Shown here one piece after another: positions 31,432 to 38,195 of a stretch of DNA of 44,054 nucleotides. The notes below the pieces were generated by a model. The model searched no databases. It was not told where the DNA came from and saw nothing but the letters and a program-made list of their open reading frames with translations. Made by a program: the position numbers and the translations under genes. This DNA is from Mariprofundus sp. (GTDB lineage: Bacteria; Pseudomonadota; Zetaproteobacteria; Mariprofundales; Mariprofundaceae), in contig JAJFLH010000008.1 of assembly GCA_021772775.1 (NCBI GenBank), positions 1-44,054 of the forward strand, read 5' to 3'. The stretch's first letter is position 1, and each line of letters begins with the position of its first letter.

Positions 31432-33399
31432 ATGCAAGATCCGACTGCAAATGAGGCCTTAGACCTCTACACATACATTGTAGATGCCAGCGATGATTTC
31501 ATGAATATCATCGATAGCGATTATTGTTATGTAGCAGTCAGTGATCCTCTATGTAAGGCCTTTCAACGTTCACGCGAAACACTTATCGGCAAGAGTGTTG
31601 CAGAGATATGGGGAGATGCACTCTTTGAGGATGGTATCCGCGCCAGACTGGATATGTGTTTTGAAGGTAGTCTGATCGAACATGAATTTGAATTTTCTTT
31701 TTTAGGTAAGGGATTGCGCTGGTATAGCAGCAGATTTACGCCTTATCGCGATCAACAGGGCTCTGTCACACATGTGGTGGTTATCAGCCATGATATTACT
31801 GAACGTGTGAAATCCAGACGGGCTCTGCAGGAGAGTAAGGACAGGCTGGAGTTTCTACTTCATTCGGCACCGGTGATTATCTACAGTCGCGAAGCAGATG
31901 ATCCCTGGCCTATAAATTTCGTGAGTCAAAATATTCGTGATCACCTTGGGCATGATGAAGCAAAATTTCTGAATGAGGTCAACGCATGGCGAGACCAGCT
32001 GCACCCGGATGATAGGGCGGGCTTATATGAGGCGCTTAGCACGCTTTATCAGCATGGTCGCAGTAAGCTTGAATACCGTGTTCAGGATAATAATGGTAGC
32101 TGGCACTGGTTGTGTGACGAAATGGTGCTGGTAAAAGATGCTCAGGGTCATCCCTGTGAGATCGTAGGTTCCTGGATTGACGTTAGCGAGCGTATCGAAG
32201 CCGAGCAGGAGCGAAGGAAGCTACAGGCTCAGATGGAACATAATCAGCGTCTTGAATCGTTGGGTGTGTTGGCCGGTGGCATTGCACACGACTTTAATAA
32301 TATTCTTGCCGCGATTATGGGAAACGCGGCAATGGCGTCACTCGAATTGGATAACAGGCCGAAGAGTGCCAGTAAATATATCGAGAGCATCATGCTTTCC
32401 AGTGAAAAGGCCGCTGAACTATGCAGGCAGATGCTGGCCTATTCAGGTAAGGGTAGTTTTGATGTCAGGCCGATCAACCTCACCACTCTGGTTGAAGAGA
32501 CACACAGGTTGCTGGAGATATCAATCCCTAAAAATGTGAGCTTAAAGCTTGATTTGGATAAGGCATTGCCATCTATAGAGGCCGATGGTGCTCAGATGCA
32601 GCAAATTGTTATGAATCTGGTGATCAATGCCTCTGATGCGATTGCCGAGAAACTGGGCACGATTCGTGTCCAGACGGGAGTTATGCAGGTGGACAATGCA
32701 TACCTCACCAGCACTTATCTGGATGATGATTTGGCTGAAGGAGACTACGTTTACCTTGATGTGGCCGATACCGGATGTGGTATGGATAGACAGACGCAGG
32801 CGGGCATTTTTGAACCCTTTTTTACGACCAAGCCTACCGGGCGTGGATTGGGCATGAGTGCAGTGCTGGGCATTATACGCAGTCACTATGGTGCGATTAA
32901 GATAGATTCCAAAGTGGGTGAAGGCACGACATTCAGAATAGTGCTGCCGGTTAGTATTAGCAATCAGTCAGATCTGTCGAGTGAGTCATCAGATGAGGCT
33001 GAGCAGATGCGATGTCTGGGCACGGTCTTGTTGGTCGATGACGACGAAGATGTGCGTACTATGGAGGCTCAGATCTTGGAGAGCATGGGCTTTCGTGTAT
33101 TGGAAGCTGATGATGGTGAGAGTGCTATTGAGGTTTACCATCAATATGGCAAGGAAATTGCTGTAATCCTGCTGGATATGGCCATGCCTAATATGGATGG
33201 AATGACATGTTTCAGTGAGCTAAAACGGATGAATCGTGATGTGAAGGTGATTCTATCAAGTGGTTATAGCCAGGCAGATACAGGTGAATGGTGTGCTGGA
33301 TTGAGCGGTTTTATACAAAAGCCATACCGGCCCGAGATGCTGAAAAATATGTTACTAGAAGTGATAAATACGAGTGAGCGTGGTTCGAATATAGATTGA
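31432..33399 (+). CDS. Hybrid PAS histidine kinase with receiver domain
   Basis: A 655-aa sensor kinase with no clear TM segment, so probably cytosolic. Two PAS domains lie at about 10-125 and 135-260 (EFEFSFLGKGLRWYSSRFTPY, then HWLCDEMVLVKD), followed by a dimerisation domain with His286 in LAGGIAHDFNNIL, the ATPase boxes (QIVMNLVINASDAI, DTGCGMD, GRGLGMSAVLGIIRSH), and a receiver domain with Asp582 in LLDMAMPNMDG and the acid pair VDDDED. It heads a five-gene operon with a coiled-coil protein, an envelope protein, a GTPase and a cyclase; no separate DNA-binding regulator is present, so the phosphoryl target is unknown. Confidence 0.93.
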   Translation: MQDPTANEALDLYTYIVDASDDFMNIIDSDYCYVAVSDPLCKAFQRSRETLIGKSVAEIWGDALFEDGIRARLDMCFEGSLIEHEFEFSFLGKGLRWYSSRFTPYRDQQGSVTHVVVISHDITERVKSRRALQESKDRLEFLLHSAPVIIYSREADDPWPINFVSQNIRDHLGHDEAKFLNEVNAWRDQLHPDDRAGLYEALSTLYQHGRSKLEYRVQDNNGSWHWLCDEMVLVKDAQGHPCEIVGSWIDVSERIEAEQERRKLQAQMEHNQRLESLGVLAGGIAHDFNNILAAIMGNAAMASLELDNRPKSASKYIESIMLSSEKAAELCRQMLAYSGKGSFDVRPINLTTLVEETHRLLEISIPKNVSLKLDLDKALPSIEADGAQMQQIVMNLVINASDAIAEKLGTIRVQTGVMQVDNAYLTSTYLDDDLAEGDYVYLDVADTGCGMDRQTQAGIFEPFFTTKPTGRGLGMSAVLGIIRSHYGAIKIDSKVGEGTTFRIVLPVSISNQSDLSSESSDEAEQMRCLGTVLLVDDDEDVRTMEAQILESMGFRVLEADDGESAIEVYHQYGKEIAVILLDMAMPNMDGMTCFSELKRMNRDVKVILSSGYSQADTGEWCAGLSGFIQKPYRPEMLKNMLLEVINTSERGSNID

Positions 33400-33418: not shown

Positions 33419-33994
33419 ATGACAGCAAAATCCAATGATGCAGAAAACAACAGTACAGCGGCGGCAGGTGAACTCGCTGGGGTTGGTAACGTCGACCAGA
33501 TTAGAGATATTATTTTCGGATCACAAATGCGTGATTATGAGAGCCGCTTTCAGCGTTTGGAGGAGAGGCTTCTCAATGAATTAACAACGATGCGAAATGA
33601 GACAGGCAACCGTGTGGATTCACTGGAATCGTATATGCGAAGCGAATTGGATGCGCTGAATAATAGGTTGGGCAAAGAACGCGACGAACGTGAGGCTGAT
33701 GATAAAGAGTTGTCGGAAGACCTGAAGAAACTCTCCAAAGAGCTGCTGAGGAAACTGAGTCATCTGGATGATTCTGTTGCAAGCCAGAACCGTGATCTTC
33801 GTGAGCAGCTACTGACTCAGTCCAAATCACTAAGTGCCGATATAAACTCAACACGGGAGCAGTTAAATAGTGCCCTAGTACAGGCCACAAATGAGTTGCA
33901 GCACAGTAAAACAGACCGTGCTTCGCTGGCTGAACTATTATCTGAAATGGCACTGCGGTTGAAAGACGAATTTCCTCTGCCTTCCGGTAAGTGA
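33419..33994 (+). CDS. Coiled-coil protein of the GTPase/OmpA operon
   Basis: A 191-aa highly charged protein with heptad repeats over residues 40-165 (RFQRLEERLLNELTTM and many similar), consistent with a long parallel coiled coil. The N-terminus (DAENNSTAAAGELAGVG) is low-complexity; VDQIRDIIFGSQ at 25-36 precedes the coil. No signal peptide or TM. The adjacent gene (24 bp downstream) begins with a segment LKELLLGEE resembling DQIRDIIFGSQ in its role as a short helix, suggesting a paired docking site, which is inference. Good Shine-Dalgarno (GGGAGAG). Confidence 0.75.
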   Translation: MTAKSNDAENNSTAAAGELAGVGNVDQIRDIIFGSQMRDYESRFQRLEERLLNELTTMRNETGNRVDSLESYMRSELDALNNRLGKERDEREADDKELSEDLKKLSKELLRKLSHLDDSVASQNRDLREQLLTQSKSLSADINSTREQLNSALVQATNELQHSKTDRASLAELLSEMALRLKDEFPLPSGK

Positions 33995-34018: not shown

Positions 34019-36682
34019 ATGTCTGATCAGCAGGTGAAAAACAGCGATGGGGATGATTCGTGCAAGCAGAATGGTGATTTTAATCATCTGAAAGAGTTGC
34101 TGCTGGGTGAAGAGTCCCGCCAGATCGCAGTTTTAGAAGAACATTTGGAAAATCCCGAGTTACATGCCGCAGATATGGGGCGTGTATTGCATAAGGCTGT
34201 GCAGATCAATCAGCAGCAGGAGCCGGGAGCACTGGCCGATGCTCTGGCTCCAGCAGTTGAGTCATCATTGTATGCTTCGGTGCGTAAGGATCCCGATAGC
34301 CTTGGTGATGCACTATTCCCCGTCATGGCACCGGCAATCAGGAAATCGATTATCTCCATTATGCACGGTATGGTGCAGTCGCTAAACCATATGTTGGAAA
34401 ATTCATTCAGCTTTCAGGGTTTGAAGTGGCGACTGGAGTCGATGCATACGGGTAAGTCCTTCGCCGAGATTGTCATGCTGCATACGCTGGCCTATCGCGT
34501 TGAGCAGGTCTTTCTGATTCATAAGGCGGATGGGCTGCTGTTACAGCATGTCAGTTTTATGGAGGAAGATACGCAAAATGCGGATTTGGTCTCCAGTATG
34601 TTGACCGCTATTCAGGACTTTGTACGGGACTCATTTCAGGTCGAGGCAAACGACTCCATAGAAAAACTGAGTATGGGTAATATGGTAGTCCACATTGAAG
34701 CGGGCTCCAAAATTGTGTTGGCCGCAGTTGTACGTGGTAATGCACCGGCCGAATTTACCGAAACGTTGCAGCAACGGTGCGAATTGATTCACAAACAGAT
34801 GGCTGGGGCGCTGGAGGCCTTTGATGGCGATGCATCGGTGTTTAATGCGGTGCGCCCTGATATGGAATCGTGTCTGCTGTCGCAAACGGCATCCACACCG
34901 ACAGGCTCTAATCTCAAGGCCAAGCTGATGCTCTCTGCGCTGGCACTGGCACTGGTCGGCTGGTCGGTTTGGGGTTGGTATCAGGCAGACCGCGAACAGA
35001 AGCTGATACGGGCACTCGATGCCCTACCTGGTTTTGTTGTGATTCGTAGTGGAGATGAGCAGGGCGCTCTACTTATTGCAGGTTTGCGTGATCCGCTTGC
35101 AGATAAACCGGATAAGTTGCTGCATCAATATGGATTCTCTAATGATGATGTGAGATTGATCTGGACACCCTATCAGTCGCTGGAGCGGGCGATGCAAATT
35201 CGCCGGGCTAGAGCAGTGCTCAAGCCTGCTGCAAAGACACGGCTCAACATTGATCAGAGTAAATTAATTGTCAGTGGTGTTGCGCAGAGCTCATGGCTTG
35301 AGCGGGCCAGAGCCTTACAGCCAGCTCTGCCTGGCATTAGCGAGATTCGCAGTGATCAGTTGGTGCTCAGCGATTCGCCTGAATATCTACTGCAGGAGGC
35401 GATCAAACAGTTGCAGCCACCGACAACAGTTCGCTTGAGTATCTCGGGTGAGACACTGATAGCTAAGGGCAAGGCACCAGACGCATGGCTGAAAAAGGCC
35501 GCAATCGTGATGAATATTGTGCCAGGCATTAAGGTTTATGATGGCTCGGCGATGATCAATATGGAGGCCGATGACTATCTGTTAGCCGAATCTGTCAGGC
35601 TGCTTAATCCACCCTCATCGGCTCGATTACATGTTTATCAGGGCATTCTCGCTGCCAGCGGAAAGGCCTCACAGCAATGGGTTGAGAGGACTGCTTCGGC
35701 AGCTGCTCTTGTTCCCGGCATCAAGGCATATGATGATTCGAAGCTGGTAAATACGCAGTCAGATGTATATCTGTTAAGCGAATCTATTCGTCTGCTTAAG
35801 CCACCATCATCGGTGCGACTAACTGTTGATCAGGGTATTCTAATTGCCACAGGTAAAGCTTCGTCCCGATGGGTGAAAAAAGCATCCAGGGCACTGCATA
35901 TCGTCGATGGTATCAATGGCTATGATTATTCTAATTTGGTGAATACGCGCTCAAATGCGTATCTGTTAAGCCAGGCGAATCGTTTGCTCAAGCCGCCATC
36001 ATCGGTTCGACTGAGCGTTCGGCGGGGTAGGCTCGCCGCCAAAGGTGTGGCATCGACGAGATGGATTAATAATGCCAGAAAGCGGGTAAAAAGAATCGCA
36101 GGTATAAGATCCTTTGATACGAACGAGTTAATCGATGTCGGATCGAATGCATACCTTTTGGCTAAGATAAAGCGCGAGCTGCAGCCGCCAGCAACAGTGA
36201 CCTTAAAACTGAATAAACGTGAACTCATCATATCCGGTATCGCTACAACGGCCTGGGCACAAAGGATCGGTAAATTGATCCTTCATATTGATGGTGTGGA
36301 TACGGTGTGGCAGCAGGATCTGGTGGTGATAGAGAAGGCTCTAGCGACGCTGAAAAGAATGTTACTGAATGCAGATTTACGATTTGTGGCCAATACGAGC
36401 CAGTTGATGGATGGTGAAACATCCAAGATTCAACGTTTGGCCAAGCAACTGATGAAACAGGCTGACTTGATGCGCATCACGCAAGCCCATGTGCAGATTA
36501 CTGGCTATTCAGGGCTTTTGGGGGAGCAGGCTGAAGTGCTGGCGCTGAGCAGAGCGGAAATGGTAAAACGCGAATTGATGAAACATGGTTTAACATCTAA
36601 GCGGGTGAAGACCAGTGGTCAGAAGACGCAGAATGAGGGTTGGGCTGCACGTTTAGATCTGGTTTGGAGGGCTTTACCATGA
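34019..36682 (+). CDS. Single-pass envelope protein with six 64-aa repeats and OmpA-like end
   Basis: An 887-aa protein. Residues 1-295 are cytoplasmic, with GMVQSLNHMLENSFSF and then YRVEQVFLIHKADGLLLQHV and DFVRDSFQVE, an alpha/beta layout like roadblock/longin domains that bind small GTPases. One TM helix lies at about 301-322 (LMLSALALALVGWSVWGWY). Residues 400-763 are six tandem 64-residue repeats with core L(K/Q/N)PP(S/A)(S/T)xRL...GILxASG and a following W-containing helix. The C-terminus (about 785-887) resembles OmpA (QITGYSGLLGEQAEVLALS, AEMVKRELMKHGL) but lacks the Asp and one Arg that bind diaminopimelate. The gene overlaps the GTPase gene (ATGA). Confidence 0.82.
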   Translation: MSDQQVKNSDGDDSCKQNGDFNHLKELLLGEESRQIAVLEEHLENPELHAADMGRVLHKAVQINQQQEPGALADALAPAVESSLYASVRKDPDSLGDALFPVMAPAIRKSIISIMHGMVQSLNHMLENSFSFQGLKWRLESMHTGKSFAEIVMLHTLAYRVEQVFLIHKADGLLLQHVSFMEEDTQNADLVSSMLTAIQDFVRDSFQVEANDSIEKLSMGNMVVHIEAGSKIVLAAVVRGNAPAEFTETLQQRCELIHKQMAGALEAFDGDASVFNAVRPDMESCLLSQTASTPTGSNLKAKLMLSALALALVGWSVWGWYQADREQKLIRALDALPGFVVIRSGDEQGALLIAGLRDPLADKPDKLLHQYGFSNDDVRLIWTPYQSLERAMQIRRARAVLKPAAKTRLNIDQSKLIVSGVAQSSWLERARALQPALPGISEIRSDQLVLSDSPEYLLQEAIKQLQPPTTVRLSISGETLIAKGKAPDAWLKKAAIVMNIVPGIKVYDGSAMINMEADDYLLAESVRLLNPPSSARLHVYQGILAASGKASQQWVERTASAAALVPGIKAYDDSKLVNTQSDVYLLSESIRLLKPPSSVRLTVDQGILIATGKASSRWVKKASRALHIVDGINGYDYSNLVNTRSNAYLLSQANRLLKPPSSVRLSVRRGRLAAKGVASTRWINNARKRVKRIAGIRSFDTNELIDVGSNAYLLAKIKRELQPPATVTLKLNKRELIISGIATTAWAQRIGKLILHIDGVDTVWQQDLVVIEKALATLKRMLLNADLRFVANTSQLMDGETSKIQRLAKQLMKQADLMRITQAHVQITGYSGLLGEQAEVLALSRAEMVKRELMKHGLTSKRVKTSGQKTQNEGWAARLDLVWRALP

Positions 36683-37182
36683 GTCGGATATTACAAAAAA
36701 AGGTCTGTTTACTGGGTGCCTTCGCGGTTGGAAAGACCAGTTTGGTTAGCCGTTTTGTGAACGGTATTTTTTCCGATAAATATCTCTCTACGATGGGCGT
36801 TAAAATAGACCGGAAAAGCCTGCAACTTGATGATGTGACCGTGAATATGATGCTGTGGGATGTACATGGTGAGGAGTCCGTTAAGAAGGTGCCCGCCGCC
36901 TATATGCGAGGTTCAGCGGCTTATCTACTGGTCATTGATGGCACACGTAGTGCAACTGTGGATACTGCTCGTGAGCTGCATGCGCGCATGCGTGCTGAAG
37001 TGGGCGATGTTCCTTTTGTGGTGTTGTTGAACAAGGTGGATCTTAAAGATGAATGGGAACTCTCTGATGCGGATGTGGCAACGATTCGTGAAGAGGGCTG
37101 GGAGTGTCTCATGACAAGTGCTTGCACAGGCGAGAATGTGGAGGCGGCATTTATACGTCTGGCCGATCAAATGATCGCGTGA
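36679..37182 (+). CDS. Ras/Rab-like small GTPase
   Basis: A 167-aa cytosolic GTPase. P-loop GAFAVGKT (13-20), switch I Thr38 in STMGV, switch II WDVHGEE (61-66), NKVD (118-121) and TSA (146-148). Family knowledge: in Ras/Rab the DxxGQ glutamine drives hydrolysis; here it is Glu65, so intrinsic turnover may be low and a partner may supply the missing chemistry. No C-terminal lipidation site is visible. The start ATG overlaps the previous stop, tying it to the envelope protein; a frame opening at 36640 would lie within that gene. The 2-bp gap to the cyclase supports a shared function. Confidence 0.93.
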   Translation: MSRILQKKVCLLGAFAVGKTSLVSRFVNGIFSDKYLSTMGVKIDRKSLQLDDVTVNMMLWDVHGEESVKKVPAAYMRGSAAYLLVIDGTRSATVDTARELHARMRAEVGDVPFVVLLNKVDLKDEWELSDADVATIREEGWECLMTSACTGENVEAAFIRLADQMIA

Positions 37183-37184
37183 AC

Positions 37185-38195
37185 ATGCCGGAGCCATTGC
37201 TCAACTATCTGGCGGAGATGCAGATTTATCGGCTCTCCCCAGCCTGGGCAAAGCTGGATGAGGCATGTCACTGTATAGTCGAGTGTGGCGGTGACTGGAG
37301 TAATTTTGATGATGATATTGCAGTGCATCGGGGCGCTGTAGTTGAAGAGAGTTTTATTTATCTCTGTGGTCAGAGTTTTGATGAACCTTTCCTGCTGCCT
37401 CAAATGGAGTTCAAAGAGAACCGCTTTACGAATGTCCATTTTTTTCGGGCGGAGAGTATTGCCTGGTTGCTGTTTTTGGATGTAACAGAACAGACTTTAA
37501 TGCAGCAGTTACAGCAGCAGAATGCCAATGAGTTGAGTCTGCTGCGTGACCAGCAGCGCAGGGTCTTGGATCGTTATGTCGGCGGTGCTGTTACTGAGCG
37601 CAGTATTGAGGGGCGTTTAACCTTTGATGCGGCTGGTGAGCGGCGCAATATATCTACCATGTTTATCGATCTGCGCAGTTTTACGATATTCAATCAAAAG
37701 TATGATCCACAGCATGTAATGGATGTATTGAATCAGTATATGAATAAGATGCTACCGCCCATTCTCGATGAATTTGGTCTGGTCGACAAAATCACCGGCG
37801 ATGGTGCGATGACAGTTTTTGGTGTACTCAATGAACAGGAAGATAGTGCTCTTTTAGCTTTTCGCGCGGCACTGCGTATTCAGCGTGAGATCTCAACGAT
37901 GAATGATCTGCGTCGTCAGCAGGGGGATTACATCATGGACGTTGGCATAGGCATTGGTAGTGGTGAAGCTGTGTTGGGTATTCTTGGTGCCCATGATCGT
38001 CGTGCATTTACAGTGATTGGGCCACATGTGAATTTAGCCGCCCGACTTGAAGGTGAAGCTAAAGGTGGTGAAATTCTTGCAGATGAAACAACTTTTCTGA
38101 CGGTTCAACATCTCATTGATAGTCATGAATGCAGATCTATTGAGTTGAAAGGAATCGGTGCAAGCCAAGTCTACAATTTACGCTATTCGAAATAG
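37185..38195 (+). CDS. Class III adenylate/guanylate cyclase
   Basis: A 336-aa protein: N-terminal PAS-like region (residues 20-105, ending WLLFLDVTEQ), a short coiled coil with QQQNANELSLLRDQQRR, then the cyclase catalytic domain. Metal-binding Asp162 (MFIDLRSFT) and Asp206 (KITGDGAMTVF), the purine-binding Lys202, and the NLAARLEGE segment near the C-terminus are present. Adenylate versus guanylate specificity cannot be decided by eye. The ATG at 37185 is chosen; a GTG at 37179 would overlap the GTPase stop. The last gene of the operon; an HD protein faces it. Confidence 0.92.
   Translation: MPEPLLNYLAEMQIYRLSPAWAKLDEACHCIVECGGDWSNFDDDIAVHRGAVVEESFIYLCGQSFDEPFLLPQMEFKENRFTNVHFFRAESIAWLLFLDVTEQTLMQQLQQQNANELSLLRDQQRRVLDRYVGGAVTERSIEGRLTFDAAGERRNISTMFIDLRSFTIFNQKYDPQHVMDVLNQYMNKMLPPILDEFGLVDKITGDGAMTVFGVLNEQEDSALLAFRAALRIQREISTMNDLRRQQGDYIMDVGIGIGSGEAVLGILGAHDRRAFTVIGPHVNLAARLEGEAKGGEILADETTFLTVQHLIDSHECRSIELKGIGASQVYNLRYSK

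Follow-up and report, generated by a model that had tools for sequence, protein, structure and literature searches.

The gene located at positions 34,019–36,682 on the + strand of the window (the whole stretch of 44,054 nucleotides of Mariprofundus DNA analysed here) encodes an OmpA-family membrane protein of 887 amino acids, and structural modelling predicted that its residues 157–291, approximately, form a longin-type domain rather than a roadblock proper. Judging from gene order, this protein very probably works together with the Ras/Rab-like small GTPase encoded immediately downstream, because the two genes adjoin across many bacterial phyla. The locus is a Group 1 Rup system, a kind that Wuichet and Sogaard-Andersen (PMC4316618) described in 2014 and for which they could not yet give a function to the domain of the OmpA protein. 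The system itself was therefore known and, as far as searched, the predicted longin identity of that domain is the new part. A literature search that covered few subscription journals found no paper naming a bacterial longin, and a review table jointly marks "Longin/Roadblock" as present in bacteria (PMC4917890).

Five genes, all on the + strand, look like one operon that runs from a hybrid histidine kinase to a nucleotide cyclase. The first gene of this apparent operon (31,432–33,399) encodes a PAS-histidine kinase-receiver hybrid identified with Pfam, and the second (33,419–33,994) a small coiled-coil protein, which the Pfam scan and the neighbourhood count revealed as a conserved upstream neighbour in 77 of 80 loci. 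They are followed by the gene of the OmpA-family protein (Pfam OmpA, E 2.4e-6), that of the GTPase (36,679–37,182; Pfam Ras, E 2e-29), which was assigned to the Group 1 Rup type by motif conservation, and that of an output protein (37,185–38,195), in which an N-terminal domain with a conserved Gln precedes an adenylate/guanylate cyclase domain (alignment; Pfam Guanylate_cyc, E 8.5e-19). The ATG of the GTPase gene overlaps the stop codon of the OmpA-protein gene by 4 bases, and only a 2-base gap separates the GTPase gene from the cyclase gene. The closest relatives in the GTDB genome scan were from Mariprofundus. In addition, a similar N-terminal motif occurs in the coiled-coil protein, where it reads IRDIIFGSQMRDYE..RLEERL, and at the beginning of the OmpA protein (34,019–34,150), where it reads LKELLLGEESRQIAVLEEHL; it is perhaps a docking helix that both have in common.

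Group 1 Rup systems consist of a coiled-coil protein, a protein with a conserved domain, a transmembrane helix and an OmpA domain, a Rup GTPase lacking the Gln of the G3 motif, and an output protein whose conserved Gln was proposed to act as a trans-Gln (PMC4316618). All four conserved parts were found here, including the Gln-less G3 and the Gln of the output protein, which was present in 71 of 78 aligned N-terminal domains and corresponds to the codon at 37,518–37,520 of the window. The present locus differs from the 2014 description in that the conserved domain is predicted as a longin, a nucleotide cyclase serves as the output and the upstream gene encodes a hybrid histidine kinase.

The OmpA protein is organized as a cytoplasmic N-terminal part, one transmembrane helix, periplasmic repeats and an OmpA domain. 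Its first 320 residues (34,019–34,980) comprise the entire cytoplasmic part together with the single transmembrane helix. A conserved helical region (residues 14–144, approximately; 34,058–34,450), modelled by AlphaFold2 with a pLDDT of 42–71 in blocks, lies ahead of the predicted longin domain (34,487–34,891). The transmembrane helix (residues 299–321, approximately; 34,913–34,981) is the sole strong transmembrane-like hydrophobic segment of the protein, with the hydropathy maximum in windows starting at residues 299–303. Further on there are five repeats of about 64 residues, presumably periplasmic, with PP at residues 467, 531, 595, 659, and 723 (35,387–36,346), and an OmpA domain (residues 789–869; 36,383–36,625; PF00691, 28.2 bits with a cut-off of 27.2), which is presumed to bind peptidoglycan. 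The three motifs on which the original prediction of a roadblock/longin-like domain was based are all present in this open reading frame: VEQVFLIHKADGLLLQHV at residues 161–178, DFVRDSF at 200–206 and KIVLAAVVRG at 231–240.

Homologues of residues 1–320 were present in 37 of 150 related genomes, and the genome scan gave 532 relatives encoded in GTDB genome stretches, the best 80 of which came from Zetaproteobacteria, Cyanobacteria, Acidobacteriota, Nitrospirota, Desulfobacterota, Verrucomicrobiota, Chloroflexota, Gemmatimonadota, and others. An alignment of 70 non-redundant homologues of many phyla showed conservation along the entire region, with a mean column identity of 55%. Such conservation, together with the 532 relatives, indicates that the motif pattern is not due to chance. 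Invariant residues in the 70 homologues were P101, R108, W137, R138, F148, E150, E162, L166, G172, M194, A197, F201, D204, F206, G220, G240, and P243. The helical region before the longin domain was likewise strongly conserved, and it may be the true binding site instead of the longin domain. Two Dehalococcoidia versions (L050:6268-7281 and L107:6869-7912) stop just past the transmembrane helix, which they retain, and have neither repeats nor OmpA domain. The absence of the periplasmic part is expected in Dehalococcoidia, whose cells have no outer membrane. Several Ghiorsea-type proteins also lack the OmpA domain, so the conserved core consists of the cytoplasmic part and the transmembrane helix, which fits a cytoplasmic job.

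Two AlphaFold2 models of the domain were obtained. The first was built on residues 1–296 of the window protein with 70 homologues. The second covered the corresponding domain in a homologue from Chloroflexota and used mostly the same sequences. In the first model the N-terminal half was helical and of low confidence, and residues 157–291 were more confident, with pLDDT values mostly of 70–87 and lower in the loops; the domain of the second reached a pLDDT of 82.8 and a pTM of 0.76. Strands were predicted at 157–168 and 174–179, followed by a helix at 186–205, strands at 216–219, 222–228, and 232–240, and helices at 244–260 and 272–283. By DSSP, the element order was b-b-a-b-b-b-a-a in both models, with two C-terminal helices, and a short extra helix stood ahead of strand 1. 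The domain had been proposed to cover residues 150–260, approximately; the models place it at about 157–291, the greater length being due to the two C-terminal helices.

Comparison with solved structures by Foldseek and VIA-align gave Sec22b as the best match of the first model (Z 14.0, 126 aligned residues, rmsd 2.5 Å), next to Ykt6 (Z 13.8), and further matches to Vamp7, Fuzzy, AP sigma, TRAPP, the Lokiarchaeota longin, Mon1-Ccz1, and the SRP receptor. For the second model, the match to Sec22b reached a Z of 14.9 over 125 of 128 residues with an rmsd of 2.4 Å. Models without a clear match typically peak at Z 7–8, and the longin matches of these predicted structures are well above that level. 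The roadblock Ego3 matched the first model with a Z of 10.0 against 14.0 for the longin, and roadblocks in general ranked below longins. Longins differ from roadblocks in having no N-terminal helix and one extra C-terminal helix (PMC10933270); the modelled domain carries two C-terminal helices and, in addition, the short helix ahead of strand 1. The predicted model superposed on solved longins across the whole domain, both C-terminal helices included. The proposed roadblock/longin class agrees with both models, and within it a longin-type domain is predicted rather than the roadblock proper, because of the two C-terminal helices, the alignment of about 125 of 128 residues with longins and the lack of a match to the Pfam model Robl_LC7.

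At sequence level, no Pfam longin model scored above its cut-off in scans of the protein, of the 70 homologues or of the consensus, and by this measure the domain belongs to no named Pfam longin family. Robl_LC7 matched neither the protein nor appeared among the families listed for the 70 members; this model did detect two real roadblocks elsewhere in the same genome, which served as a positive control. In an NCBIfam scan of the protein, neither longin nor roadblock models exceeded the cut-off, and a search of PDB sequences with the family profile gave nothing convincing for the cytoplasmic part. Fuz_longin_1 (PF19036) produced ten short sub-threshold hits in 9 of 25 genomes, none of them reported as spanning the domain, and since this model scored in control genomes as well, the hits were treated as chance.

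Faint sequence support for the roadblock/longin superfamily came from profile comparison. With the first subfamily alone, the hhalign comparison with roadblocks was not significant, its positive control (robA against robB) not being a clean one as both share members. When the profile included a divergent second subfamily, it could be aligned to MglB-type roadblocks in the structural register along 70 columns, with a score of 26.9, a P of 0.0025 and an HH probability of 12%, above all of 200 column-permuted controls. The top three of 924 scored sequences (896 background ORFs and 28 roadblocks) were roadblocks, and the difference between roadblocks and background was significant by the Mann-Whitney test (p 7e-6), the sequences being related to one another. 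Single sequences of Ykt6 and Sec22b did not match the profile significantly; the alignment of Sec22b was nevertheless in register.

The original prediction also named the adjacent Rab-like GTPase as the partner, and the genomic distribution agrees with this. Among the best 80 of the 532 relatives, a Ras/Rab-like GTPase gene adjoined the OmpA-protein gene in 79 loci belonging to many phyla, and the lone locus without it was at a contig end. A second, strongly diverged subfamily of longin proteins, with ORFs of 740–1270 amino acids beside a Rup-type GTPase, was recovered from cyanobacterial genomes (L158–L181) by profile search, and here the GTPase gene adjoined in 21 of 24 loci. In the 150 related genomes, both genes were present in 34, the OmpA protein alone in three, the GTPase alone in one and neither in 112 (Fisher p 4.6e-29, a value that overstates independence because the genomes are related). 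Three of the four single cases lie at contig ends, namely two of the three with only the OmpA protein and the one with only the GTPase. In the remaining one, G105 (L144:3444-5617), a shortened longin-OmpA protein was found with a coiled-coil gene and without a GTPase nearby, an arrangement that may reflect decay or another partner. No roadblock genes were detected in the flanks of the 80 loci or in the window. The G3 motif of the GTPase of this locus reads WDVHGE, and the Glu that had been noted in place of the catalytic Gln was confirmed as the rule (WDxxGE), with Glu in 68 of 79 aligned GTPases and Asp at this position in five. Two loci (L046 and L055) have two GTPase genes near the longin gene, and two genomes of the same genus carry a second Rup-type GTPase outside the operon (G001:C1:593064-593546 and G015:C26:164705-165190).

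From the observed gene anatomy, conservation and genomic linkage, a mechanism can be proposed in which the longin-type domain would lie on the cytoplasmic face of an inner-membrane protein whose opposite end would enter the periplasm through the repeats and the OmpA domain. The longin domain would dock the Group 1 Rup GTPase at the membrane and, depending on the state of the envelope, which the OmpA protein would sense, would shift the nucleotide state of the GTPase. Once loaded, the GTPase would control the output protein, a nucleotide cyclase in this locus, by way of the conserved N-terminal domain of that protein, and this same domain, carrying the candidate trans-Gln, would complete hydrolysis. 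As a whole, we consider it probable, with some room for doubt, that a membrane-anchored longin docks the neighbouring GTPase and alters its nucleotide state according to the envelope. Direct binding between both proteins is the step in which we are fairly confident. The orientation in which roadblock/longin dimers bind small GTPases is conserved, and most of these dimers function as GEFs, occasionally as GAPs (PMC10933270). For the longin domain studied here, an effect by nucleotide exchange has slightly less than an even chance, a role as passive anchor is possible but tentative, and activation of the GTPase appears unlikely. A common fold is by itself no proof of function, and the longins of SNAREs and adaptor subunits have roles other than GTPase regulation. 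Because a trans-Gln candidate already exists in the output protein, our analysis favours a membrane-bound platform for the GTPase, with exchange factor as its most likely activity.

Three other explanations were weighed. The domain might be a true MglB-type roadblock and the missing GAP of the Glu-containing GTPase, a possibility suggested by the common roadblock/longin core, the weak profile similarity to MglB-type roadblocks, the presence of Ego3 (Z 10.0) among the structural matches and the fact that the Group 1 Rup GTPases have no G3 Gln and their GAP was unknown in 2014 (PMC4316618). However, Robl_LC7 was not listed for any of the 70 members although it finds two roadblocks in this genome, longins matched about 4 Z units higher and were aligned across both C-terminal helices, and no coupling of MglB to Rup was seen in the 2014 survey (PMC4316618), all of which makes this explanation improbable. 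Even more improbable is a generic PAS/GAF-like sensor of small ligands that does not contact the GTPase, the genes being merely co-regulated. Longins do have a PAS-like fold (PMC3521125), but nearly all the structural matches were longin, adaptor, TRAPP or roadblock chains and not PAS or GAF, and the linkage to the GTPase outlasts very deep divergence and the loss of the periplasmic part.

It could also be that the longin domain purely anchors or localizes the GTPase or the coiled-coil protein at the membrane, as the SRX longin domain of the SRP receptor does, leaving the nucleotide state unaltered, and that the Gln of the output protein stimulates hydrolysis. The SRP receptor chain matched the domain with a Z of 9.6–9.7, the two copies that lack a periplasmic part still have the transmembrane helix, and the Gln proposed as trans-Gln (PMC4316618) was conserved in 71 of 78 output proteins. 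Even so, we regard an exclusively anchoring function as rather unlikely, and the platform with exchange activity continues to be the preferred interpretation.

Among other systems, eukaryotic longins (Sec22b, Ykt6, Fuzzy, the TRAPP core, Mon1-Ccz1, and SRP receptor alpha) match the predicted fold over the whole domain with Z values up to 14.9, and according to the PDB titles several of the matched chains bind Rab-type or related GTPases. Unlike them, the domain described here is bacterial, has no significant sequence match and is followed by a transmembrane helix, periplasmic repeats and OmpA; moreover, it is present as one longin per chain, and DENN, SNARE or TRAPP parts were not detected. 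A Lokiarchaeota longin (PDB 8yqg), prokaryotic too, matches with a Z of 10.8–11.3. The Asgard archaeon MK-D1 does not, as a rule, combine GTPase genes with roadblock or longin genes in operons (PMC10933270), whereas here GTPase and longin genes are adjacent and nearly always together.

The 2014 description of Group 1 Rup left two questions, the nature of the domain of the OmpA protein and the regulation of a GTPase without catalytic Gln. The longin assignment offers a concrete answer to the former and a testable one to the latter, and the original suggestion of a roadblock-like GTPase partner, which was a good one, is partly supported, namely as to superfamily and partner. Roadblock/longin families are thought to be archaeal in origin (PMC10933270). 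If true, a longin linked to the GTPases nearest to Rab in many bacterial phyla would shift the placement of the longin-Rab partnership, for which longin and Rup GTPase would provide a small soluble test system. It is conceivable, but doubtful, that this is an ancient and widespread bacterial membrane switch, in which a deeply diverged longin pairs with the bacterial GTPases nearest to Rab/Ras/Rho, rather than an archaeal or eukaryotic invention, converting here the envelope state into a second messenger with the longin as exchange factor.

Finally, the MglB roadblock, a GAP acting with MglA, shares with the predicted domain the core fold, a small-GTPase neighbour and a faint in-register profile similarity, and differs in that the domain has another helix arrangement, a Rup instead of an MglA GTPase, a membrane anchor and no Robl_LC7 match. 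Roadblock genes occur elsewhere in the same genome (L151:3629-5736 and L150:2250-4578). One set adjoins an MglA-like GTPase (GTPGQ), and the other adjoins genes which, by eye, resemble those of a metallo-beta-lactamase-fold protein and a globin. The same genome has, as a result, both kinds of GTPase system, Rup and MglA-like.
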